Shown one piece after another: positions 33,721-46,557 of a stretch of DNA of 64,000 nt. The first letter of the stretch is position 1; each line of letters begins with the position of its first letter. The DNA is from Gemmatimonadota bacterium (GTDB taxonomy: Bacteria > Gemmatimonadota > Gemmatimonadetes > Gemmatimonadales > Gemmatimonadaceae). The position numbers and the translations under genes were made by a program. Below the pieces are notes generated by a model, which worked only from the letters and a program-made list of their open reading frames with translations, did no database searches and was not told the origin of the DNA. The stretch is taken from contig JAZKBK010000004.1 of NCBI GenBank assembly GCA_040388625.1, forward strand, positions 496,001-560,000, read 5' to 3'.

Positions 33721-34743
33721 ATGTTTGACCCAGCCGCGTCGGCCAGCGGACGCGGTGCGATCGCGGAACAGCCTCTTGCGCTGAAACCAGTCCCGCCGGG
33801 ACTTGGGCGTCGCGTCGTTGTCACCGGAGCTGCCGGCTTCGTCGGCTGTCACACCTGCCGCGCTCTCGCCGGGAAAGGCTGGCAGGTCCGCGCCCTTGTT
33901 CGAAGCGCCGCCAAAGCGGCCGAGCGACTCGCCCATCTTCCAGTTGAAATCCGAATCGGTGACATTCGGGATCCTGCGTACCTCGCGTCATCGATGGACG
34001 GCGCCACAGCGGTCGTTCACCTCGCCGCCATCGCTATCGAGCACGATGGCGATACCTACGAATCGGCCAATACGAACGCAACGCGCGCCGTGATCGAATC
34101 CGCCTCGAATGCCAGGGTGCGCCGCTTCGTGCACATGTCGCAGAACGGCTCCGACAGCAAGTCGCCTTACCGATTCCTTCGAAGCAAGGGCATTGCGCAG
34201 GACCTCGTCACGTCGAGCGACCTCGAATGGACGGTACTCCGCCCGTCTGTCATCTTCGGACGCGAGGACGAGTTCGTCAACATGCTCGCTCGTCTGGTGC
34301 GCCTCACTCCATTTGTATTGCCGCTTCCGGACGATGGCCGTGCACGCTTTCAGCCGATCGCGGTCGACGATGTCGCCCAGGTCATCGCGCACACGATCAG
34401 CGATGCGTCCACGCATCAGCAGATCTTTCCACTCGGTGGCTCCGCCGAGCTGACGCTTCGTCAGATAGCCGAGCGCATTCTCGTCGCCATGAACGCCCGG
34501 CGGGCCGTAATTGGCGTGCCGGCCGCGATCATTCGGCCGCTCGTCGCAGCGCTCTGGCATCTCGTTCCCAGACCGCCCGTGACGAGCGAGCTGCTCGACA
34601 TCCTTGCGTTGAACAACACCGTCCCCGACAACGCACTCGTATCGGTGTTCGGAATCAGCCCGGCGCCGTTCGCGCCGGAAGAGCTTTTGTACCTTCGCAA
34701 CATCACCTTCGGGGAAGCGCTCCGGTCGTTGTTCAGGAACTAA
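33721..34743 (+). CDS. NAD(P)-dependent epimerase/NDUFA9-like atypical SDR
   Basis: The 340-residue protein has an N-terminal Rossmann loop VVTGAAGFVGCHTCRALAGKGWQVRALVR, cited here only as TGAAGFVG near residue 36, and the HLAAIA motif. The central segment FVHMSQNGSDSKSPYRFLRSKG replaces the usual YxxxK with YRFLRSK, as in NDUFA9/NmrA-type atypical SDRs. It likely binds NAD(P)H but may not be a classical dehydrogenase. A C-terminal part binds an unidentified ligand. It overlaps the convergent aminotransferase gene by 4 nt. Confidence 0.8.
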   Translation: MFDPAASASGRGAIAEQPLALKPVPPGLGRRVVVTGAAGFVGCHTCRALAGKGWQVRALVRSAAKAAERLAHLPVEIRIGDIRDPAYLASSMDGATAVVHLAAIAIEHDGDTYESANTNATRAVIESASNARVRRFVHMSQNGSDSKSPYRFLRSKGIAQDLVTSSDLEWTVLRPSVIFGREDEFVNMLARLVRLTPFVLPLPDDGRARFQPIAVDDVAQVIAHTISDASTHQQIFPLGGSAELTLRQIAERILVAMNARRAVIGVPAAIIRPLVAALWHLVPRPPVTSELLDILALNNTVPDNALVSVFGISPAPFAPEELLYLRNITFGEALRSLFRN

Positions 34744-35849
34744 CCCCTCAAAGCTCTCAGCCCGTCCGCGACCGCCCCGAGGCAGGATTCCAGTCCTGCA
34801 ACCGTATGGTCTCCCATATGTCCGACGCGAAACGTCGCCGATCGTAAAACTCCGTAACCGGTGCCGATCGTATATCCACGCTCGGCAACGTTCCGCACCA
34901 GATCGGTCGACACCATTCCCGACGGTAACGATACCGCAGTAACGGTCGGCGACCGCGCTCCCTCCTTCGCGAGTATCGAAATATCGATATCGAGCGCATC
35001 ACGCGTCCGCCCCACCCATTGTTCCATGGTCGAGCGCATCGCTTCATGTCTGGACCAGCGCGCCTCGATCCCTTCGGCGACGATCGCCTGCACCTGTCGA
35101 TCGAGCGCGAAGATGAGCGACACCGCAGGGGTCGCTGGCGTCTCCTGGTTCCGCGCGTGGGAATCGAAGGCGAGCAGATCGAAGTACATGCCACGACCCT
35201 CCACTTTTTCGATCGCCCGCAGATAATTCTCCGACACCACGGCGAACGCCAGCCCTGTCGGTAGTGCGAGCGCCTTCTGCGATGCGCTCACGACACAGTC
35301 CACGTCCCACGCGTCGAATTCCAGCCGCGCACCGCCAACTCCGCTGACGCTGTCGACAATTGTCAGTACTCCCGATTCACGCGCGACGCGCGCGATTGCG
35401 CGCACGTCTGCGAGCGCACCAGTGGAGCTCTCGTTGTGAATCATGGTCAGCGCCGAGTACGATCCAGCTTCGAGTCGCTTGCCGACCTCCTCCGCGTCCG
35501 GGACATCGCCCAGCGCAAAACCGATCTGATCCACCTCTCGGCCACACTCATGCGCGAGCTTCACGAAGCGCTCACCGAACGCCCCGTTCACGAGCGCCAG
35601 TATTCTTCCACGCGGCGCACAACGTATTGCGGCCTCCATTCCGCCAGTGCCGGATGACGTCAGTACATACACAGGCCGTTGCGTCCGGAACACGTCGCGC
35701 ATTCCGGCCTGTATGCGCGAGAAGATCTCGTGAAACTCCGCGCCGCGGTGAGGGATCGGCTGCCGCAGCATCGCCTTCAAGACGTCTTCTCTGACTTCCG
35801 TGGGGCCGGGAAAGAAAAATGTACCCGGCTGCGGTTCAGGTTGCTGCAC
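34740..35849 (-). CDS. Class V aminotransferase (alanine-glyoxylate/serine-pyruvate type)
   Basis: The 369-residue PLP enzyme has the family opening FFPGPTEVREDVLKAM, the SSGTGGMEAAIR phosphate-binding segment, and TIVDSVSGVGG containing the Asp that contacts the PLP ring. The Schiff-base lysine is in SASQKALALPTG. It probably transfers the amino group of serine or alanine to glyoxylate or a related acceptor. It begins at GTG 35849 directly after the GNAT stop and is the last gene of the long repair operon. A metabolic enzyme there is unexplained. Confidence 0.9.
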   Translation of the reverse strand: MQQPEPQPGTFFFPGPTEVREDVLKAMLRQPIPHRGAEFHEIFSRIQAGMRDVFRTQRPVYVLTSSGTGGMEAAIRCAPRGRILALVNGAFGERFVKLAHECGREVDQIGFALGDVPDAEEVGKRLEAGSYSALTMIHNESSTGALADVRAIARVARESGVLTIVDSVSGVGGARLEFDAWDVDCVVSASQKALALPTGLAFAVVSENYLRAIEKVEGRGMYFDLLAFDSHARNQETPATPAVSLIFALDRQVQAIVAEGIEARWSRHEAMRSTMEQWVGRTRDALDIDISILAKEGARSPTVTAVSLPSGMVSTDLVRNVAERGYTIGTGYGVLRSATFRVGHMGDHTVAGLESCLGAVADGLRALRG

Positions 35850-36827
35850 TCAGATCTCCCAGTTCGACAGGATGACACCGGCGTGCGCCGGCTCCGGACG
35901 ATCGGCGAGCGTCATGCGAAGGTCGGTCCATCGAACGCGCGCTCCCCGACGAATGAGCTGTGCATACAAAGCGCCGTAGGCGCCCTGCATTCTGATGGCC
36001 ACCCGACGCGTCCCGGATCTGCGTGCATAATCCGCGAGTTGGGTCGCGAGTACGTCGACGTCACTTTCGGCGCGGCACGCAAGCTTCAAAACACGCAGCT
36101 CGTCCCTGCCCCGACCTTCGACAAGCGGCGCTGTGTGACACAATGCAAAACCATCGACCGTGCCGCCGCGCTCCAGGACGAGCGTATCTCCCAGTCCGAG
36201 CGCGTGAGTCAGGTTGATCTCGCGCGTGTAATCGTATCCCGGCGATATGTCCTGCGTGAGTTCTGCGCATCTCGTGACGAGATCGGTCCGCTCGCTCTCG
36301 GACAGACGCCCCAGCTGCACGATTCTGCTGTCCGCGTAATCCGCGTCCAGCGTGATGGTGATCGTGAGATAGGATGGAACGTAGCCCAGCGACGAGTAGA
36401 AGCCGATGTTGTCGACCGTCCGGGGCATGGTTTCGAGACCGATAACTTTCGCGCCGTGATCAGCGAGCCACCTTGTCCCCTCGGTGACTACGCTCTTGCC
36501 GATACCGTGGCCCTGGAGAGACGGAGTCACGGCGAGGGGACCCATCCAGCCTTCCGTGCCAGACAGATGACACATGTTGAAGGCGACGATTTCATCGCGC
36601 TCTCCGCGCCATAGCATTGCGCCGCCGTCAGCGTCCTCGATCGCGAACCGCCAGATCGCGGAGCTGAGATTCGGAACGTGAACACCGACCAGCCCGTCCT
36701 TGCGGTATCGGTCGGTGAAGGCGCCGCTGAACACTGAGTTCAGGCTTGCGACGTCCCGCACGGTCGCAGGATACGGTCCCGACACGCTCGGCGAGCGTCT
36801 GAAGTTCTTCGCGAATCCAGCCGTCAC
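35850..36827 (-). CDS. Tandem GNAT-fold N-acetyltransferase
   Basis: The 325-residue protein has a full GNAT domain at about 20-165. Its acetyl-CoA motif is VTPSLQGHGIGKSVVTEG, and ETMPRTVDNIGFYSSLGY follows. The C-terminal half (about 180-325) looks like a second, degenerate GNAT unit. Members acetylate amines or proteins. The start GTG 36827 lies just behind the sbcC stop, so it is coupled to the repair genes. Substrate unknown. Confidence 0.85.
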   Translation of the reverse strand: MTAGFAKNFRRSPSVSGPYPATVRDVASLNSVFSGAFTDRYRKDGLVGVHVPNLSSAIWRFAIEDADGGAMLWRGERDEIVAFNMCHLSGTEGWMGPLAVTPSLQGHGIGKSVVTEGTRWLADHGAKVIGLETMPRTVDNIGFYSSLGYVPSYLTITITLDADYADSRIVQLGRLSESERTDLVTRCAELTQDISPGYDYTREINLTHALGLGDTLVLERGGTVDGFALCHTAPLVEGRGRDELRVLKLACRAESDVDVLATQLADYARRSGTRRVAIRMQGAYGALYAQLIRRGARVRWTDLRMTLADRPEPAHAGVILSNWEI

Positions 36828-39302
36828 TCAGGCTCCTTGCATCGGGAATACCGTATCTACCTCCACATCGTCGTGCTCCGCCAGCCGAAGCGACGGAATT
36901 CCCTCGTCCGACCCGTCGACCACCGACGCGCCCGTCTCCTCATCATAGCGCACGACGATAACCCTATCGACCCCCTCACGCACGCTCTCGATATGAGTGA
37001 TGAGAATCACCTGCTCGAACCTGTCTTCCAGTCTATGGAGCAGCTCCAGAACATTGTCGCGTCTGGATGAGTCCAGTGATCCGAAGACCTCGTCCAGTAC
37101 CAGCAACGAGAACGGTTGGCCCGACCGGTCGGCAATCATCTGGGAGATCGCCAGGCGAAGCACCAGATTGGCAAGGTCTTCCTCACCACCGGATATCACG
37201 GGCTTTGCTATCCCATCCTCCAGAACGACGATGTCGTAACGTTCGTCCAGCTCGAGTCTGTTGTAGCGCTCGTCAGTAAGCGCGCCAAGAAAAGAGCTCG
37301 CAATCTCCGAGAGTTCCGGACGCAGGGCATCGTTCAGATCGCCTCGAAGGTCCCGAAATGCGTTGTCCAACTCGTCGTGCATCAGCCGCTGGCCGTTCAG
37401 GACGCGCAGCCGTTCCGCCACTCGCTCATACTCGCGCTTCGCGGCCTCCGCGGTATCCAGGCGTTGCTGCGCAGCACGTACGTCACCCTGGGCGCCGACG
37501 ACGATCAGCTCGCTGGATCGGGAAGCTTCAGTCGCGCGCTCGAAGTCGGCGCGAACAGCATCGTGCGCAGTCTGCGAGAACTCGCGCGTCGCGCCGGCGT
37601 TGCGCAGCGCATCGCGTTTCGCGATCGCCCTCGCCAACTCCGAGTCGATCCGCGCTCGCTCCACCTGCGCGGCCGGTGCGCGCTCGACCGCCGCCTCGAG
37701 CCGCGCGGCACGAAGGTCCATCGGTGCGAGACGCTCGATTTCCCTGCGCACGTACGCGTGACGCTCGGCATCGTACACGGCACTGATCGAGTTGATCTCC
37801 GCAAGCATCTCCGCGCGACGTTGGTCCTTCGCCGCTATCTCGCGTTCGAGAGCCGGCAATTCGTGCACGGCGGCCTGCACCTTGGCAAGTTTCCGCTCGA
37901 GCGTAGTGAGCGCCATCGCGAGGCCGCGCCGCTTCTCCTCCAGGGTCGATACGCCAGCCGGAATCGCGGCAAGTTGATCTTCGCGGTCCCGATAGTACTG
38001 GCCGTCCACGCGGAGCGTCTCCAGCTGTTCGGCCAGGTGCGTTACGACAGACCGGAAGTTGGCGCCGAGTACACGGTTGCATGTCGGACAGATGCCCTCA
38101 GCACCCAGCTCGACGATGCTATCGTGTTGCTCCTTCACATCGGCGTATTGGCGGCGCAGCTCCTGCAGCTTCGTTTCCGCTTCCTGCTTATCGCGTACCC
38201 ATTCGGTGCGCAGCGTTTCAAGCGTCTGGGACGTCTCCTCGAACTGCGTACGAGCTTGCTCCAGCTCGAGCGTCACGGCCTCTTCCAGAGCTGGTGCTGT
38301 CTCGAGTCGTCCCAGCCGCTCGCGCAGCCGGATCAGCTCATCCGCCAGTGCGCGCTCGTTTTCCATGAGCGCGAGGCGTCGACCTTGCTGGCGGAAGAGA
38401 TCGTCCAGCCCAAGTAGCTCCTGACGCAGAGCAGGCAGCGGCGCAATTGCCGCGCGCAGCGTCGCCAATTCCTCGTGCACAGTCGCGATCGCGATCAGTT
38501 CCGAGGCCAGGCGCTCTCCATCTCTCGTGAGATCCGAAACCTCACGCTCGACGATCGTTATCTCGGCGAGCAATCGTTGCCACTGCTCGCGCTCGCGCTG
38601 CGCCTGTTCCCACAAGGGAGTCACACGCCGCAGCTCCGCGAGCGCGATCGAATGACGCGTCCCAGCTTCATTCGAACGCGCAATCGCATCCTGCAGACTT
38701 GCGGCCGCCACCGACAGTGCGCCTGTGATCGCCTCCGGTTCAGGCATCGCGGAGCGGAGGCCGGCGATCTCGGCGCCGATACGCCTGCGTGATTCGCGTG
38801 CGATCTCCTGTGCGGCACGGAGTCGCTCATAGCCCAGCACTCGCGACAGGAATTGCGCGCGCTCGGTGGTACCCATCGCCGCCATCACGGCGAGATCCTT
38901 CTGACCCGTGAAGTACGTATTGAAGAATTCGCCGCGCGACATGCCCATGCGTCGCGCGACGAGCTCGTTCACGCCGCTGATGGAATTGGCGACAGCAGAT
39001 TCGGATCCGTCCAGATAGAGCGATGCGGTCGTCAACCCGCGCTTCACTCTGTAACGATGTCCACCAAGCTCGAAATCGAGCTCGACCTCGACCGGGGCAC
39101 GTGGTCCCGCGCCGAGGAACCGGACGCCGTCCCGCTGACCACGGATCGCTGGTTGACCGTACAGTGCCCACGCGATCGCTTCGAGCACCGTCGTCTTGCC
39201 AGAACCGTTTGGGCCAATGATCGCGGTGATGCCGCGATCGAACGTCATCTCCGTCCGCGCGTGCTGGCGGAAGTTCAGCATGCGAAGACTGTTGATCTTC
39301 AC
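36828..39302 (-). CDS. sbcC: Rad50/SbcC-type SMC ATPase
   Basis: The 824-residue SMC-like protein partners with Mre11/SbcD in DNA end processing. Walker A is GPNGSGKTT at 30-38. Long coiled coils (about 170-390 and 430-690) flank a zinc hook CPTC at 405-408 that dimerises two molecules. The C-terminal ATPase half has the signature ISGGEEDLANLVLRLA and Walker B LLVLDEVFGSLD. Length is like archaeal Rad50 and shorter than E. coli SbcC (about 1,050). It overlaps the sbcD gene by 4 nt. Confidence 0.95.
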   Translation of the reverse strand: MKINSLRMLNFRQHARTEMTFDRGITAIIGPNGSGKTTVLEAIAWALYGQPAIRGQRDGVRFLGAGPRAPVEVELDFELGGHRYRVKRGLTTASLYLDGSESAVANSISGVNELVARRMGMSRGEFFNTYFTGQKDLAVMAAMGTTERAQFLSRVLGYERLRAAQEIARESRRRIGAEIAGLRSAMPEPEAITGALSVAAASLQDAIARSNEAGTRHSIALAELRRVTPLWEQAQREREQWQRLLAEITIVEREVSDLTRDGERLASELIAIATVHEELATLRAAIAPLPALRQELLGLDDLFRQQGRRLALMENERALADELIRLRERLGRLETAPALEEAVTLELEQARTQFEETSQTLETLRTEWVRDKQEAETKLQELRRQYADVKEQHDSIVELGAEGICPTCNRVLGANFRSVVTHLAEQLETLRVDGQYYRDREDQLAAIPAGVSTLEEKRRGLAMALTTLERKLAKVQAAVHELPALEREIAAKDQRRAEMLAEINSISAVYDAERHAYVRREIERLAPMDLRAARLEAAVERAPAAQVERARIDSELARAIAKRDALRNAGATREFSQTAHDAVRADFERATEASRSSELIVVGAQGDVRAAQQRLDTAEAAKREYERVAERLRVLNGQRLMHDELDNAFRDLRGDLNDALRPELSEIASSFLGALTDERYNRLELDERYDIVVLEDGIAKPVISGGEEDLANLVLRLAISQMIADRSGQPFSLLVLDEVFGSLDSSRRDNVLELLHRLEDRFEQVILITHIESVREGVDRVIVVRYDEETGASVVDGSDEGIPSLRLAEHDDVEVDTVFPMQGA

Positions 39303-40501
39303 AGCGAGTCGCTCACTGGAATGGCTGTCGCCGCAGCATCCGCCATGGTCAGATATTCCATACCGAGCGACACGAATGCAGCACGATCGATCTCCGCGGA
39401 AATCGGTCGTGATTCCAGCTTGTCGCGCAGTATCTCCGGCAGCGACGGACGTCTTCCCGGCGCCCCGCTCGCACTACGAAGCACGAGCTCCGGGCGGCGC
39501 ACGTCGAGGTTGAAGTGCAATGCACGCCGCTTCACGTCGCGCACAGCCTTGGGGTCCATCTGACGCGCAACGTGTCGCGACACGTTGGTGATCACGAGCC
39601 GCGCTACGTTGTCGTCTATCGGCACGCGCGAACTATCCACTCTTTCCTGTATTGCCTCGTCGAGTTCCCGCGCCGTCATCGACGTGCCATCGAGTCGCGG
39701 AAGGTCCACCAGCGGGCGGGAGACGGTGAGTGGATGAAAGGTGTGGGTCGCTGTCTCGAGGTCCCACTCGATGATGCCCTTCCCCCCGCGAACCGGATCG
39801 TGCAATCCGGCGGCCCGCTCCTCGTGAATCTCACCCCACGGATTGGCGCTGGTGTAATCGATCGAGCCAGAGTAGTAAGCGTTCGGCGCCACTTCGCGGT
39901 GAACGTGATAGTGGCCGAGCGCCACGTAGTCCCAGCGCGTCGGCTCGATCTGATCCTTGCTGATCTCGACGCTGGATCGCTCCATGCGCCGCGCGTAATC
40001 CGGCAGCACGCCCTCCACCTCGCCGTGCAACAGCAGAATGTTCCGCTGCGCCGCAGGATCGGGTGTAAGCGCCGGAACGCCGCTCGGCATGTCCGGAACC
40101 GCCAGAATCGAGACGCCCTGCTCCGGAAACTCCAGTCGCTGTGCATCACCTTCGACGACCGTGATTCCGAGCGGCGAGAAAAGGCGAAGGATGCAACCCG
40201 TTTCGGCTGTGCGTGGGGTGTCATGATTGCCAGCGACCATCACGACCTTCGCATCCGGCAACGACGAAACGAGACGCGCGAATTGCAGGAAGGCGTGCAG
40301 GATCGCGGGATTGGACGGACGCACCGTGTGAAATACGTCGCCCGCGATGAGAACGAAGTCGGGACGCAATTCGATGGTCCGGTCGATCGCCCGCTTGAAC
40401 GTGCCGGCGACATCGGCTTCACGCTGATTGATTCCAGCGGGAGTCAATCGCTGATACTGCCGGTAGCCAATGTGAAGATCGGCGAGATGGACCAGCCGCA
40501 T
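39299..40501 (-). CDS. sbcD: Mre11/SbcD-type DNA nuclease
   Basis: The 400-residue calcineurin-like phosphoesterase is the nuclease of the Mre11-Rad50 complex. All five metal motifs are present: HLADLHIG, AGDVFH, VAGNHD, LLHGEV and ALGHYHVH. The capping and Rad50-binding region covers the C-terminal 150 residues. It is 5 nt downstream of the secreted-protein gene and coupled to sbcC by an overlap. It would cut 3'-to-5' or endonucleolytically at breaks and hairpins. Confidence 0.95.
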   Translation of the reverse strand: MRLVHLADLHIGYRQYQRLTPAGINQREADVAGTFKRAIDRTIELRPDFVLIAGDVFHTVRPSNPAILHAFLQFARLVSSLPDAKVVMVAGNHDTPRTAETGCILRLFSPLGITVVEGDAQRLEFPEQGVSILAVPDMPSGVPALTPDPAAQRNILLLHGEVEGVLPDYARRMERSSVEISKDQIEPTRWDYVALGHYHVHREVAPNAYYSGSIDYTSANPWGEIHEERAAGLHDPVRGGKGIIEWDLETATHTFHPLTVSRPLVDLPRLDGTSMTARELDEAIQERVDSSRVPIDDNVARLVITNVSRHVARQMDPKAVRDVKRRALHFNLDVRRPELVLRSASGAPGRRPSLPEILRDKLESRPISAEIDRAAFVSLGMEYLTMADAAATAIPVSDSL

Positions 40502-40506
40502 CGCGC

Positions 40507-41298
40507 TCAGTTCCCCACCAGTTCCATGAGCGACTGGATGATGCGCATGCGCGCATGGATCGGCGGCCGTCCAAGTGGATGCACGTCCGACACCACGCTC
40601 ACGACCATCTGCGAATCGGTAATCCAGCCCAGGCGGCGGTCCACCTGCATCGTGCCCTCGATTGTTCCGAAGGTTTTCCCCACGGTTCCGGCCCCGTCCT
40701 GAGCGTGATCATGCGTGACGGCCCCGTGGAAAGATACGTACGCCACAGCGCCGCGTCCGGCCAGTGAATCCAGACGGAAGGTGGTGCGCACGTCCGCGGT
40801 GCTCGGCCCGCTGGTGCTCAGCGGTACCCGCATGTCGCGTACCCACGTATGGCCGACCGCGACCGGATGTGGAGGAAGCATCGACGGCATCTGCGTCCCA
40901 ACCGAGACGACGTCGCCTGAACCCGCCCCCACGTTCATGCCGCCACTCTCATCCACGCGCAGGCGAACGGTGCGGCCTTCCAGCGCACGCTGAGCCTCGC
41001 GAAGCGGTCGCAGTGCAACGTTCGACGGAAAGACCCGCACAGAGTCGGTCACTGAAAGAAGATCCGTGTATCCGTGCGCCCGCTGCAGCACGATCGCCCG
41101 CGTCCAGACACGCATTTCCCCCGACATCGTTTCGGGCGGATCGCCCGACTCCATCTCGAATCGCTGCTCCAGCTGCATGCGCAACGTGTCTCCCGCGGGC
41201 GGAGCGATCTTCAGCGTAACGGTCTGAGCCAGCAACGGCGCTGCGGTCAGTCCACACACCAGAAAAAGTGGTAACAAGCCACCCACTCCGCGGATCAC
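40507..41298 (-). CDS. Secreted protein of unknown function within the repair operon
   Basis: The 263-residue product has a signal peptide (LLPLFLVCGLTAAPLLAQ, cleavage near residue 25) and a beta-rich body with no catalytic motif that I recognise. It may resemble DUF6263-type periplasmic proteins. It starts at GTG 41298, 3 nt after the herA stop, and ends 5 nt before sbcD, so it is translationally embedded between two DNA-repair genes although it is exported. The mismatch of location and neighbours is unexplained. Confidence 0.7.
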   Translation of the reverse strand: MIRGVGGLLPLFLVCGLTAAPLLAQTVTLKIAPPAGDTLRMQLEQRFEMESGDPPETMSGEMRVWTRAIVLQRAHGYTDLLSVTDSVRVFPSNVALRPLREAQRALEGRTVRLRVDESGGMNVGAGSGDVVSVGTQMPSMLPPHPVAVGHTWVRDMRVPLSTSGPSTADVRTTFRLDSLAGRGAVAYVSFHGAVTHDHAQDGAGTVGKTFGTIEGTMQVDRRLGWITDSQMVVSVVSDVHPLGRPPIHARMRIIQSLMELVGN

Positions 41299-41301
41299 CG
41301 G

Positions 41302-43248
41302 TCAGGCTCCGTATGGATCGTCGTTCGGTGCGCCGCGAAGCGCGGCCACCTGCGGCCGCTGCTGCACGGACTGCGTGATTCGTTTTGGCAACCGCGCGCG
41401 GAAGGTGCCGAGCATGTCCGCTGGTCGCTCCTTGAGAGTCACCGCGAGCGCGCGAAGCACGTCGCCCTCATCGTGCAACCCGATCGCGTCTTCCACAGCC
41501 TGCAGCGTGATCGACGAATCGCGCCCACGGAGCGCGCGGTATACGGCCGCTTCCAGCGACACCTCTCCGCCTTGCGGATATTGCTCGGCCCCGAGACGAC
41601 CAGCCATGACCGCCGGCCGCGGGAACCGCACGAATATCGGCTGGGTGAAATGCGGATGCCGGATCATCAGTTGACCCTTCTCGAGCGTCGCGAGCTTGGT
41701 CCGCGTTGCAGGTGAGAGCACCGCGTAACCAGGTGCACTCAACTCGTCCGCATCCATTCTTCCGAACACCGAGGTGCCCGAGTTGCCCACGACTCTGCGA
41801 TGCACCTGCGACCTGAACTGCTGCGCACTGAACAGCACCAGCCCCAGATACCGCCCTCGCTCGGCGATGTCCAGCAGCATCTTGCGCACGTACGTGTCCG
41901 GCCCGTCGCCTGGTGCATACTTGTTCAGCTCGTCGACGAACACCACTACATGCTTCACGCCCAGGTCGCGCCGCTCCAGATGCTCCCGCAGTTTGGACAC
42001 TACGCGTGCGAAGATCAGATCCTGCGCATCCTCCTCCAGATTCGCGACGTCCACCACGTAAGTCGCGCGATCCTCGAACTCGCCAAAAGGCAGATCGCTC
42101 ACCGGTCCCGAGTCGGTGACCAGCCCAGCACATCGCACCGATATGTTTGACAGCCGGTTGCGAACCTTGCGGATCGTCGCAACGTGATGAGTGCGCCAGC
42201 TTTCCTTGTTGCCGTTCTCGAGTCCGCGCAACACGTCGCGAAACCAGTCTTCCAGATCCGCAAACGACTGCACTACGTGCGGCCGCGTGAGCATTGGATC
42301 GGTGAAGGTCTGATCGATCACGCTGCGCGTTATGAAATCGATCAGCGCGTCCGCTTTCGCGTCGATGTCGTCCCGATTGAGCAACACCTCGGCGTACTGC
42401 AGCACCTCGCGCAACCCCCACGTGAGCGGAGTCACGTTGTGCGCGAGCGCCTCGTTCGAGCGCAGAGTGTTGAGAGAGAAGCCGCGTGCCGAGTAGGGTG
42501 CGTAGTATTGAACGTTCTGAAACGGCCGCGCCGGAACACCCATCTTGTCGTACAGCGCCCTGTCACCGTCATCCAGCTTGCCCGGCAGATCGAGAAAGCA
42601 GAGATCCGGCCCCTTCACGTTGAAGCATACCGCGGCAATCGATCCGCGGCTCTCCGGAAAGTGAGCGAACAACGATGCCAGTATCCACTCCACCGCGCTC
42701 GTCTTCGTCGCCAGACCCGACACGCCAGTGATGTTCAGATGCGCTGCCTCCGGCCCGACCAGAAAATCCGCGTCGAGAAAGATCGTCGCGTCCGTTCCAC
42801 CAGCGCGATACACGCCGATCGGAATCCCCGTGTGGCTACCGTCGCGCAGATAACCATCCATCCGCAGCGCAACGTTGACGTCTTCCTCCTGCGCGAGAAA
42901 CACATCGCCCATCGGCACCGGTTGCAGCGGCTCCTCGGGGATCTGTCGCAATACCGCGGCGCTGTAGAGCCGGATCTCCGACCGCTCTGCAGATGCGAAC
43001 CCGGCCGATCCCGGCGCACCATCATGCCCCAGCACGTCGTGCATCGGGGTGAGCAGATCGGTGTAGCTGAAACCCTCGGTCACGATTCCGTAGATGTGCG
43101 GAATCTGCCCTTCAACCGGCCGGCGTCCATCGACGCGCACTATCGTGCCAATGCCTACCGGCGAATCCAGCGCTGTCCAGAAATGAAACTCGTGCGGCGT
43201 GTTGGGCTTCCGCTCCGTCGCGACGACCCTTCCAAGTATTTCGGTCAC
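41302..43248 (-). CDS. herA: HerA-type hexameric DNA translocase ATPase with atypical P-loop
   Basis: I choose GTG 43248, which overlaps the nurA stop (GTGA) and puts the HerA N-terminal barrel (ILGRVVATERKP) at the start; 648 residues result. A HAS-barrel precedes a FtsK/HerA-type ATPase. The Walker A is GVSGLATKTS (165-174) in place of GxxGxGKS, and Walker B is HVVVFVDELNKYAP at about 437-450. HerA forms a hexamer that binds NurA and moves DNA through it during end resection. A variant HerA family with the ATKTS loop is known from several bacterial phyla. Confidence 0.88.
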   Translation of the reverse strand: MTEILGRVVATERKPNTPHEFHFWTALDSPVGIGTIVRVDGRRPVEGQIPHIYGIVTEGFSYTDLLTPMHDVLGHDGAPGSAGFASAERSEIRLYSAAVLRQIPEEPLQPVPMGDVFLAQEEDVNVALRMDGYLRDGSHTGIPIGVYRAGGTDATIFLDADFLVGPEAAHLNITGVSGLATKTSAVEWILASLFAHFPESRGSIAAVCFNVKGPDLCFLDLPGKLDDGDRALYDKMGVPARPFQNVQYYAPYSARGFSLNTLRSNEALAHNVTPLTWGLREVLQYAEVLLNRDDIDAKADALIDFITRSVIDQTFTDPMLTRPHVVQSFADLEDWFRDVLRGLENGNKESWRTHHVATIRKVRNRLSNISVRCAGLVTDSGPVSDLPFGEFEDRATYVVDVANLEEDAQDLIFARVVSKLREHLERRDLGVKHVVVFVDELNKYAPGDGPDTYVRKMLLDIAERGRYLGLVLFSAQQFRSQVHRRVVGNSGTSVFGRMDADELSAPGYAVLSPATRTKLATLEKGQLMIRHPHFTQPIFVRFPRPAVMAGRLGAEQYPQGGEVSLEAAVYRALRGRDSSITLQAVEDAIGLHDEGDVLRALAVTLKERPADMLGTFRARLPKRITQSVQQRPQVAALRGAPNDDPYGA

Positions 43249-44204
43249 GCTATGGCTCGTAGAAACTGCTCGCAGTCGCGAATCCCGTATGCCATCCGGT
43301 CCCATCGGCCGTCGGGCAATGACAGCGGCGTCACTTCACCCAGCACCCAGCGCGACACTTCATTGGCGCGCTCCGCAACATCATCCGTCGGCGAGACCTC
43401 GATACGAACAAGTCCGAACATCGCGTCACGTCCGCGTGGATCGCGCAACCGGAGATACCAGCTGATCACCGGACTCCGCTGCCTGGCCGACAACGTGAAC
43501 ACGGAACTGCGCTCCCCTCGCTTGAGCGACATCACCACGTCCAGCGCATCTCCATCGGCAAACAGAGTCTGATGACTCTTTATGACACCGACCGCACAAC
43601 TGGCTGCCGCCACACGCCCGCTTCCGCTGATCCCGCCGTCGATGAACAATGGCTCGGAGCCATCGGCACACCATAGCTCAGCGAGCTTGCGCTCGGCGTT
43701 GTCGCGATCCCGTCCCACGCGCTCGAACGCGACAGCGCGCAGTGCCGCTGGATGACGCGATACCAGCGCTCCGGTGCCCTCGTCGTGGCTGGTATCGACG
43801 ATCTCGAATCCGCCCGTCTCTGTCCGACCTTCGCATTTGAGGAGCGTCAATGGCATGTACAACCGTCGCGACATGATCGGTGTGCGATGTCCCCACGTGA
43901 CGAACCGACGGTTGACGCGAACGCGCACCACTGCCGCCACCGTCCCGTCGACTATCGGAATGCCATTGCGATGACATGCGATTCGCGCACGCTGGATTCC
44001 GTCCAGAAAACCCGCGAAGCGAACCTCGGGCTCGCCGGTTATTCGATGCGCACGCAGCCTTTGCCCTTCTATGCACTGCGCCGCTGCGATGCGCGGCGCC
44101 TCGTTATACGCGCCAGAGTAACTCTCGTCCGCCGGCGCGTCCGACTGAACTATCTCGACATCCGGGAGCAGGGATTGGATCGCTCGCAGTACGTCAATTG
44201 ACAC
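43245..44204 (-). CDS. nurA: NurA-type 5'-3' nuclease
   Basis: I use GTG 44204, overlapping the upstream gene's stop; 319 residues result. Metal-binding acidic positions lie in FLDGIQRAR (D68) and LFIDGGISG (D189), the two conserved NurA aspartates, with a RNase H-like fold between. The gene is directly upstream of and overlaps herA. NurA and HerA form a helicase-nuclease machine that degrades the 5' strand at breaks after Mre11-Rad50 has opened the end. Sequence divergence is high, so the fold call rests on motifs plus partner gene. Confidence 0.8.
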   Translation of the reverse strand: MSIDVLRAIQSLLPDVEIVQSDAPADESYSGAYNEAPRIAAAQCIEGQRLRAHRITGEPEVRFAGFLDGIQRARIACHRNGIPIVDGTVAAVVRVRVNRRFVTWGHRTPIMSRRLYMPLTLLKCEGRTETGGFEIVDTSHDEGTGALVSRHPAALRAVAFERVGRDRDNAERKLAELWCADGSEPLFIDGGISGSGRVAAASCAVGVIKSHQTLFADGDALDVVMSLKRGERSSVFTLSARQRSPVISWYLRLRDPRGRDAMFGLVRIEVSPTDDVAERANEVSRWVLGEVTPLSLPDGRWDRMAYGIRDCEQFLRAIA

Positions 44205-44472
44205 CGATGTCCCACGCTTGCTCCAGATCACCCTTCGAGTACACTCGGAATGCCGTCAGGGTCTGTGTCTTCTGCAGACCCGGCGCCGTGGAAACCTCCT
44301 CGGTTACCACGCGCGCGACGCTTTCGAAGTCGGGAACCTCCACAAGAGCGACGAGATCCCAGTCGCCACTCACGGAGTACACGCGCGATACCCCTTCAAT
44401 CCCGGCCAGCTTGGTGGCACATTGCGGGATCCGCTGCGGGTCGGCCCTCACCAGCACGATGGCGGAGATCAT
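44194..44472 (-). CDS. Stand-alone Lrp/AsnC ligand-binding (RAM) domain protein
   Basis: The 92-residue protein is a bare RAM domain (ISAIVLVRADPQRIPQCA, VYSVSGDWDLVALVEVPD) with no helix-turn-helix. Such proteins sense amino acids and form rings. It is the first gene of the repair operon and overlaps nurA by 11 nt. Its start lies 27 nt from a divergent gene, so its promoter must be within that short gap or inside the neighbour. Confidence 0.88.
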   Translation of the reverse strand: MISAIVLVRADPQRIPQCATKLAGIEGVSRVYSVSGDWDLVALVEVPDFESVARVVTEEVSTAPGLQKTQTLTAFRVYSKGDLEQAWDIGVN

Positions 44473-45945: not shown

Positions 45946-46557
45946 GTGAGTGTCGCATACCAGCACACCGGCGGCTGGATCGAGGTAGTCGCCGGCGTCA
46001 TGTTCAGTGGCAAGAGCGAGGAGCTCATTCGCCGTATCCGGCGCGCACTCATCGCGCGAAAGCGCGTCCAGGTGTTCAAGTCGCGCCTGGACGAGCGCTA
46101 CGCCGGCATCAATGCTGTCTCGAGCCACGACGGGCGGACGGTGGAGGCGATTCCTGTCGACACGGCTGCACAGATCGCACAACGATTGGATCCCACCGCG
46201 CAGGTGATCGGGATAGATGAAGCGCAGTTTCTCGATCCGGGAATCATCACACTCGTCACGACGCTCGCTGACACCGGACGGCGCGTGATAATTGCCGGCA
46301 CCGACACCGACTTTCGTGGCGAGCCGTTTGGCGCCATGCCGCAGCTCATGGCGATCGCCGAGAGCGTGGACAAGCTACACGCGATCTGTGTGCTCTGCGG
46401 CGGACCCGCAACACGCAATCAGCGACTTATTGACGGGAAGCCCGCGCCGTACGAGAGTCCACAGATCATGGTCGGCGCAGCGGACCGGTACGAAGCACGG
46501 TGCAGGATGTGCCATAGCGTGCCGCGGCTGGACGCCGCGCAGGTGCGCATGTTCTGA
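45946..46557 (+). CDS. tdk: Thymidine kinase (type II)
   Basis: The 203-residue enzyme phosphorylates thymidine. Walker A is [11 protein letters not shown] at about 17-27. The acidic DEAQFLD motif, the lasso segment GLDTDF-like [11 protein letters not shown] and a four-cysteine zinc site (CVLCG...CRMC) follow. All are standard for cellular type II TK. GTG 45946 lies 6 nt after the preceding stop. It complements the pyrimidine-nucleoside phosphorylase at 19.7 kb. Confidence 0.96.

Follow-up and report, generated by a model that had tools for sequence, protein, structure and literature searches.

A conserved nurA-herA-mre11-rad50 gene cluster in Gemmatimonadales and its probable role in the resection of DNA breaks

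Background

Does a row of nurA, herA, mre11 and rad50 genes in a soil bacterium of the Gemmatimonadaceae encode a machine for the resection of broken DNA ends, and if so does this machine take the place of the RecBCD or AddAB enzymes? The row lies at 34740-44472 on the minus strand of a stretch of 64,000 nucleotides (nt), here called the window, that spans positions 496,001 to 560,000 of contig JAZKBK010000004.1 (assembly GCA_040388625.1). The genome measures 3.84 Mb in 22 contigs and is 99 percent complete; the closest named contigs with the same cluster are metagenome-assembled genomes of Gemmatimonadetes, with HerA identities of 92 and 89 percent. A reading made from the sequence alone (the sequence-only reading) had proposed a complete end-resection operon, and from it either archaeal-like resection in this lineage or another job such as defence. 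In this work we found that the four genes form a cluster conserved across Gemmatimonadales, for which a role in break-end resection is the best reading, with a probability of roughly two in three, and that in this genome the cluster accompanies the bacterial enzymes.

Operons of herA, nurA, mre11 and rad50 in archaea were reportedly described by Constantinesco in 2002 and 2004. Archaeal clusters of these genes have long been known (Quaiser 2008, PMC2288612). They share with the present locus the same four functions in clustered genes; the present locus differs from them in having the bacterial HerA/NurA subfamily, extra passenger genes, and a host that also has AddAB, RecJ and RecQ. Among bacteria, NurA and HerA of Deinococcus radiodurans (drNurA and drHerA below) assemble at a ratio of 2:6, and the complex is able to resect 5' strands in vitro (Yang et al. 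2023, PMC9960219; structures 7f6d, 7wrw and 7wrx), and a nurA-hepA-sbcD-sbcC cluster was reported in Oceanithermus profundus (Blesa et al. 2017, PMC5448004). A full-text search of the open-licence literature for NurA and HerA together with Gemmatimonadetes returned no paper.

Results and discussion

Identity of the four proteins

Scans of the nurA product as a single protein against Pfam and NCBIfam returned no NurA match, and the herA product was nearly missed as well. Both results are explained by the low sensitivity of the library scans, and the matter was settled with profiles and structure models. For NurA, a profile of 37 relatives matched drNurA (7f6d) at 4.4e-16 and the structure of Thermotoga maritima NurA (TM1739, 1zup) at 7.5e-7. 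The AlphaFold model of the protein (pLDDT 89.6) gave 1zup (1.9e-12) and 7f6d_G (3.2e-12) as top Foldseek matches, with the RNase H-like fold, and orthologues from family f5, a family of the same class, exceeded the Pfam NurA cut-off. In the alignment of the 37 sequences the motif I aspartate D77 is conserved in 35, with one asparagine and one glycine, and the second aspartate D198, K218 and R309 are invariant. The last two correspond to K201 and R309 of drNurA, which together with D53 are essential in that enzyme (PMC9960219). By profile and predicted fold, the product is a member of the NurA nuclease family; the sequence-only reading had named it so, and neither kind of search placed it elsewhere.

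The HerA profile matched drHerA at 1.8e-125 over profile positions 4-568, which is nearly the whole length, and the structure model matched drHerA (7wrw) at 3.7e-38. The match of the profile to archaeal HerA (T. kodakarensis, 9x1l) reached 0.69 only. Judged by its sequence, this HerA belongs to the bacterial subfamily already known from Deinococcus and is not an archaeal import. Its unusual Walker A motif GVSGLATKTS is of the same G-SG-ATKTS type as the P-loop of drHerA (GISGVATKTS), in which K175 and T176 contact the nucleotide and Mg (PMC9960219). The residues K201, T202 and S203 of this motif are invariant in 30 relatives, and R485, the equivalent of the trans-acting Arg513 of drHerA, is invariant as well. 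The locus therefore has the same NurA and HerA subfamilies and the same catalytic residues as D. radiodurans, with nurA beside herA.

The third protein matched Mre11 of M. jannaschii at 5.6e-15. Its metal ligands D8, H10, D55, H93 and H199 are invariant, and N92 and H197 nearly so. The fourth protein scored better with the Rad50 model PRK03918 (6.9e-52) than with the SbcC model TIGR00618 (9.7e-27), and its Walker A motif, signature SGG and D737/E738 are invariant. Both proteins resemble archaeal and Thermotoga forms more closely than they do SbcCD of Escherichia coli. Profiles, folds and catalytic residues thus bear out all four of the names that had been given from the sequence alone.

The scores of Mre11 and Rad50, higher with archaeal models than with those of the E. 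coli type, are what a recent transfer of the four genes from archaea would lead one to expect. HerA, however, matches Deinococcus and not T. kodakarensis, the base composition is flat along the window (59-67 percent GC), and the cluster is found order-wide. Such a transfer is hardly credible in view of these results.

Conservation of the cluster

In order to assess gene order in relatives, we surveyed families f1 and f2, in which each genus was represented by a single genome, together with 80 GTDB contigs having HerA. The order RAM-nurA-herA-(secreted)-mre11-rad50-GNAT recurs in both families, with the RAM and secreted genes limited to f1, and the core that is conserved across Gemmatimonadales consists of nurA-herA-(secreted)-mre11-rad50-GNAT. 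The complete and tight eight-gene operon was found in the window's own genus only. Among those GTDB contigs with sufficient sequence, nurA lies upstream of herA in 62/69 and mre11-rad50 lies downstream of herA in 49/52; retention of the order at these rates indicates that the arrangement is not due to chance. The linkage of herA and nurA to genes of the sbcCD type, which the sequence-only reading had seen in one locus, accordingly extends to the relatives. Exceptions are a genome in which nurA is unlinked (G244) and one in which it is displaced by pilus genes (G028). IMG/VR yielded a single HerA contig, L031 (42.6 kb); its HerA is a distant one, and nurA and herA are paired on it (33 percent).

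The four genes also occur together in Armatimonadota, in two of the three contigs that make up the whole sample of this phylum (L149 and L150). In family f5 they are found in the rearranged order herA-mre11-rad50-nurA, with frames that abut or overlap in two contigs (L068 and L069). Since the same four genes stand together in two different orders, a shared function can be argued. The cluster resembles that of Oceanithermus in that both are bacterial and have nurA-herA followed by sbcD and sbcC. The latter was reported from a single genome of Thermales, whereas the present cluster is order-wide, is found on Armatimonadota contigs and shows repeated loss of nurA-herA.

This evidence bears on the explanation that nurA-herA and mre11-rad50 are mere neighbours which have a common operon without a common function. 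Such an explanation would account for the genomes in which nurA-herA was lost while mre11-rad50 was kept, and for the unrelated DUF6263, GNAT and aminotransferase genes in the same row. It does not sit well with the adjacency of the four genes in f5 in another order, in Armatimonadota, in Oceanithermus (PMC5448004) and in archaea (PMC2288612), and we consider it quite improbable.

The distribution of the genes is also informative about the other job that had been suggested for the operon, namely defence. The nurA-herA pair is present in 86 of the 103 family genomes in single copy, and the pairwise protein distances of NurA, HerA, Mre11 and Rad50 covary (r 0.79-0.89), which fits long shared inheritance and not mobile defence genes. 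HerA-type motors are used in defence elsewhere (PMC11291478), and an anti-phage or anti-plasmid system of HerA motor and nuclease, similar to Sir2-HerA, DUF4297-HerA or Thermus TdpAB, would agree with the weak match of the NurA model to TdpAB (8wfd, 2.2e-6) and with the matches of the HerA model to defence HerAs. By far the closest matches, however, are NurA and HerA of Deinococcus, and PADLOC returned generic SMC/HerA matches only, with no specific defence family. Across genera the cluster keeps its position by thymidine kinase and pilus genes; its neighbours comprise thymidine kinase, genes for type IV pili and genes of metabolism. No sulfur-modification genes or known partner genes were seen beside it, and the aminotransferase is not DndA-like by its best model. 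What the locus has in common with DUF4297-HerA, Sir2-HerA and TdpAB is a HerA-type motor with an effector; its partners are others, its context is not one of defence, and its distribution is that of core-genome genes. A defence function is therefore very unlikely.

Other resection enzymes and the natural loss of nurA-herA

The genome of the window was searched for the common bacterial enzymes, and was found to carry an addB-addA operon (G000:C3:291136-297432 region), RecJ and two RecQ-family helicases. NurA-HerA is therefore no replacement for the bacterial enzymes here. The proposal of archaeal-like resection stands in part: an end-resection role remains the best reading, and neither RecBCD nor AddAB was detected in many of the relatives that have NurA-HerA, but the cluster does not stand in for these enzymes in the genome from which the proposal was made. 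As a side observation, the window's genus contains two dissimilar AddAB-type pairs (L155:7134-13432 and L175:4713-11595). In genome G190, identity with AddA of the window genome is as low as about 30 percent, and two AddAB pairs seem to be present, which suggests exchange of AddAB.

We tested 63 genomes with NurA-HerA, of which 13 have RecC, 10 have an AddAB pair and 40 have neither. Single RecB-length frames in genomes with NurA-HerA were checked with the recB model; the 40 genomes without RecC or AddAB were also negative for RecB with this model at 1e-40, where the sensitivity for AddA is imperfect (the Caulobacter control was missed).

Of the 103 family genomes, 17 lack nurA; these same 17 also lack herA, and 16 of them have kept mre11. 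The loss locus was readable in 14 cases. In each of these nurA-herA alone is gone and mre11-rad50 and the neighbours are in place; most of them also retain RAM and the secreted gene. RecC was found in 12 of the 17 genomes, AddAB in two (G195 and G228) and RecBCD in G236, which was examined specially before being counted since its recC is cut by the contig end. Thus 15 of the 17 have RecBCD or AddAB, and in G019 the recC-recB-recD operon scored above curated cut-offs. No RecBCD or AddAB was found in the remaining two (G199 and G201). The ratio of genomes with to those without RecBCD or AddAB is 15/2 after loss and 23/40 in the presence of NurA-HerA (Fisher p 2e-4, raw). This pattern is suggestive of a replacement of nurA-herA by RecBCD or AddAB in the loss lineages.

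Proposed role and points against it

The resection reading is derived from the sequence and from analogy to studied systems. We favour it because of the identities of the proteins, their catalytic residues, the linkage of the genes, the joint loss of nurA and herA, and the in vitro activity of the D. radiodurans orthologues. According to this reading, Mre11-Rad50 would recognise a broken or blocked end and open it. A HerA hexamer would then load on the duplex and pump DNA into a NurA dimer, which would cut the 5' strand and leave a 3' tail for RecA. In the window genome NurA-HerA would work alongside AddAB and RecJ/RecQ. In the many relatives without RecBCD or AddAB it would be the only recognised candidate for a coupled motor-nuclease, with RecJ/RecQ as the other route.

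Several results weigh against a resection role. Translocation and resection by drHerA require the pore arginines R495 and R552 (PMC9960219), whose positions are occupied in the window HerA by G466 and A524. In the alignment of Gemmatimonadales-type HerA these positions are mostly A/G/S (466) and T/A/S (524), and both arginines are kept only in three rows, all from family f5. The pore arginines are, though, a requirement shown in one studied homologue and not a signature that defines the HerA family, and conserved K/R residues at HerA positions 474, 537 and 543, the first of which is an arginine in the window, could substitute for them. Besides these arginines, the locus differs from D. radiodurans in its mre11-rad50 linkage, which the cited D. 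radiodurans literature does not describe. D. radiodurans strains deleted for nurA and herA are more, not less, resistant to UV and mitomycin C (PMC9960219), so that it is disputed whether the pair serves resection in bacteria. The two genes are far apart in family f9. RecJ and RecQ were found in 35/35 genomes tested, and NurA-HerA is thus not the sole possible route of resection. Finally, the association of loss with RecBCD or AddAB shrinks when shared ancestry is taken into account. The within-genus permutation gave p 0.024 (G236 not yet included). The tree shows about seven losses of nurA-herA, and an independent-pairs test of loss against RecBCD or AddAB was not significant; hence we do not claim this association as established. 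Hand counts, which are indicative only, place 5/7 losses on lineages with RecBCD or AddAB (p 0.07), or 6/8 when off-tree genomes are added (p 0.03).

Some of these points would be better accommodated if NurA-HerA were an accessory or regulatory complex (in fork repair, in the clearing of long flaps or palindromes together with Mre11-Rad50, or in the restraint of RecJ) and resection were left to AddAB or RecJ/RecQ. AddAB, RecJ and RecQ are all in the window genome. RecJ of D. radiodurans is stimulated by HerA, an effect that NurA blocks, and the mutants have opposite phenotypes (PMC4663267); the deletion of nurA-herA enhances resistance. G199 and G201, moreover, do without NurA-HerA, and no RecBCD or AddAB was found in them. 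On the other hand, most losses fall in lineages where RecBCD or AddAB is present, which would be expected if these enzymes can replace NurA-HerA, and 40/63 genomes with NurA-HerA have neither. We regard an accessory role as fairly unlikely, although it is the strongest of the alternatives. Going one step beyond the resection reading, we tentatively propose that NurA-HerA together with Mre11-Rad50 may be the main end-resection machine in much of the Gemmatimonadaceae, interchangeable with RecBCD or AddAB, and that its HerA may grip DNA by pore residues unlike the Deinococcus arginines; we hold this wider proposal to be somewhat less probable than its negation.

Gene boundaries and accompanying genes

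The eight open reading frames of the cluster are present where the sequence-only reading had placed them, and only the start of herA had to be corrected. Between adjacent genes there is a gap of at most 5 nt, no gap at all, or an overlap of a few bases. The genes are packed without space for separate promoters and, as read from spacing and overlaps, probably form an operon. The coordinates are listed in Table 1. The start of herA called at 43305 (frame 41302-43305) was rejected as about 19 codons too long. We moved it to 43248 because in a sister genome the extension called to 43305 is interrupted by a stop codon, relatives have ATG (Met) at the codon matching V20 of the window HerA, and the nurA/herA junction reads ..AGC GTGA CC.., in which the herA GTG overlaps the nurA TGA by 4 nt.

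Table 1 Features of the cluster. Positions are those of the window; residues refer to the predicted proteins.
Feature	Position	Strand	Basis or remark
RAM (Lrp/AsnC ligand-binding) domain protein, stand-alone, 92 aa	44194..44472	-	Pfam AsnC_trans_reg 5.9e-15
nurA, predicted RNase H-like 5'-3' nuclease	43245..44204 (open frame to 44231)	-	Profile of relatives and fold match
NurA motif I aspartate D77	44001..44003	-	Aligned with FVDG motif of 1zup; taken as equivalent of drNurA D53
herA, predicted hexameric HerA/FtsK-type DNA translocase, about 648 aa	41302..43248	-	Profile, fold, GTGA overlap
HerA Walker A, GVSGLATKTS (unusual)	42697..42726	-	K201/T202 equivalent to drHerA K175/T176
HerA Walker B, D458/E459	41929..41934	-	Invariant in alignment; equivalent to drHerA D487/E488
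HerA pore position G466 (codon)	41908..41910	-	R495 in drHerA
HerA pore position A524 (codon)	41734..41736	-	R552 in drHerA
Secreted DUF6263 protein, between herA and mre11	40507..41298	-	Pfam DUF6263 3.8e-6
mre11/sbcD, Mre11-type calcineurin-like nuclease	39299..40501	-	Metallophos 1.2e-10; Mre11_Sulfo model 1.1e-21
rad50/sbcC, SMC-like ATPase, 824 aa	36828..39302	-	AAA_23 1.4e-21; SbcC_Walker_B 2.4e-7
Rad50 zinc-hook CPTC, residues 405-408	38079..38090	-	Both cysteines invariant in all rows
GNAT acetyltransferase, 325 aa	35850..36827	-	Acetyltransf_1 1.8e-11
Class V aminotransferase	34740..35849	-	Aminotran_5 3.4e-21; best named model BhcA-like 2.3e-58
Thymidine kinase (beside the cluster)	45946..46557	+	Synteny marker across the order

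The remaining genes differ in how closely they follow the core. The RAM protein has 59-96 percent identity across the family; its gene lies upstream of nurA, often at a distance of 1-2 kb, and persists after the loss of nurA-herA in 12/14 loci. The DUF6263 gene occupies the interval between herA and mre11 in Gemmatimonadaceae only, has no apparent link to DNA repair and is probably a passenger. The GNAT gene directly follows rad50 in nearly all relatives of the two families, with or without nurA-herA; since it persists where nurA-herA is gone, it tracks mre11-rad50. The aminotransferase gene is found at the locus in the window's genus only and is absent there outside the genus.

Conclusions

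Bacterial NurA-HerA and one four-gene cluster were known before; what is added here is a broadly conserved cluster with a pattern of natural loss. Deletion mutants of Deinococcus show good or even improved DNA repair, and this has left the bacterial role of NurA-HerA unsettled. The Gemmatimonadaceae offer a cleaner natural experiment, in which a conserved cluster, often with the only coupled motor-nuclease of its class found in the genome, is missing its nurA-herA genes in close relatives that mostly have RecBCD or AddAB. Whether one resection machine replaces another can thus be tested through comparison and through deletions made in relatives that can be cultured.

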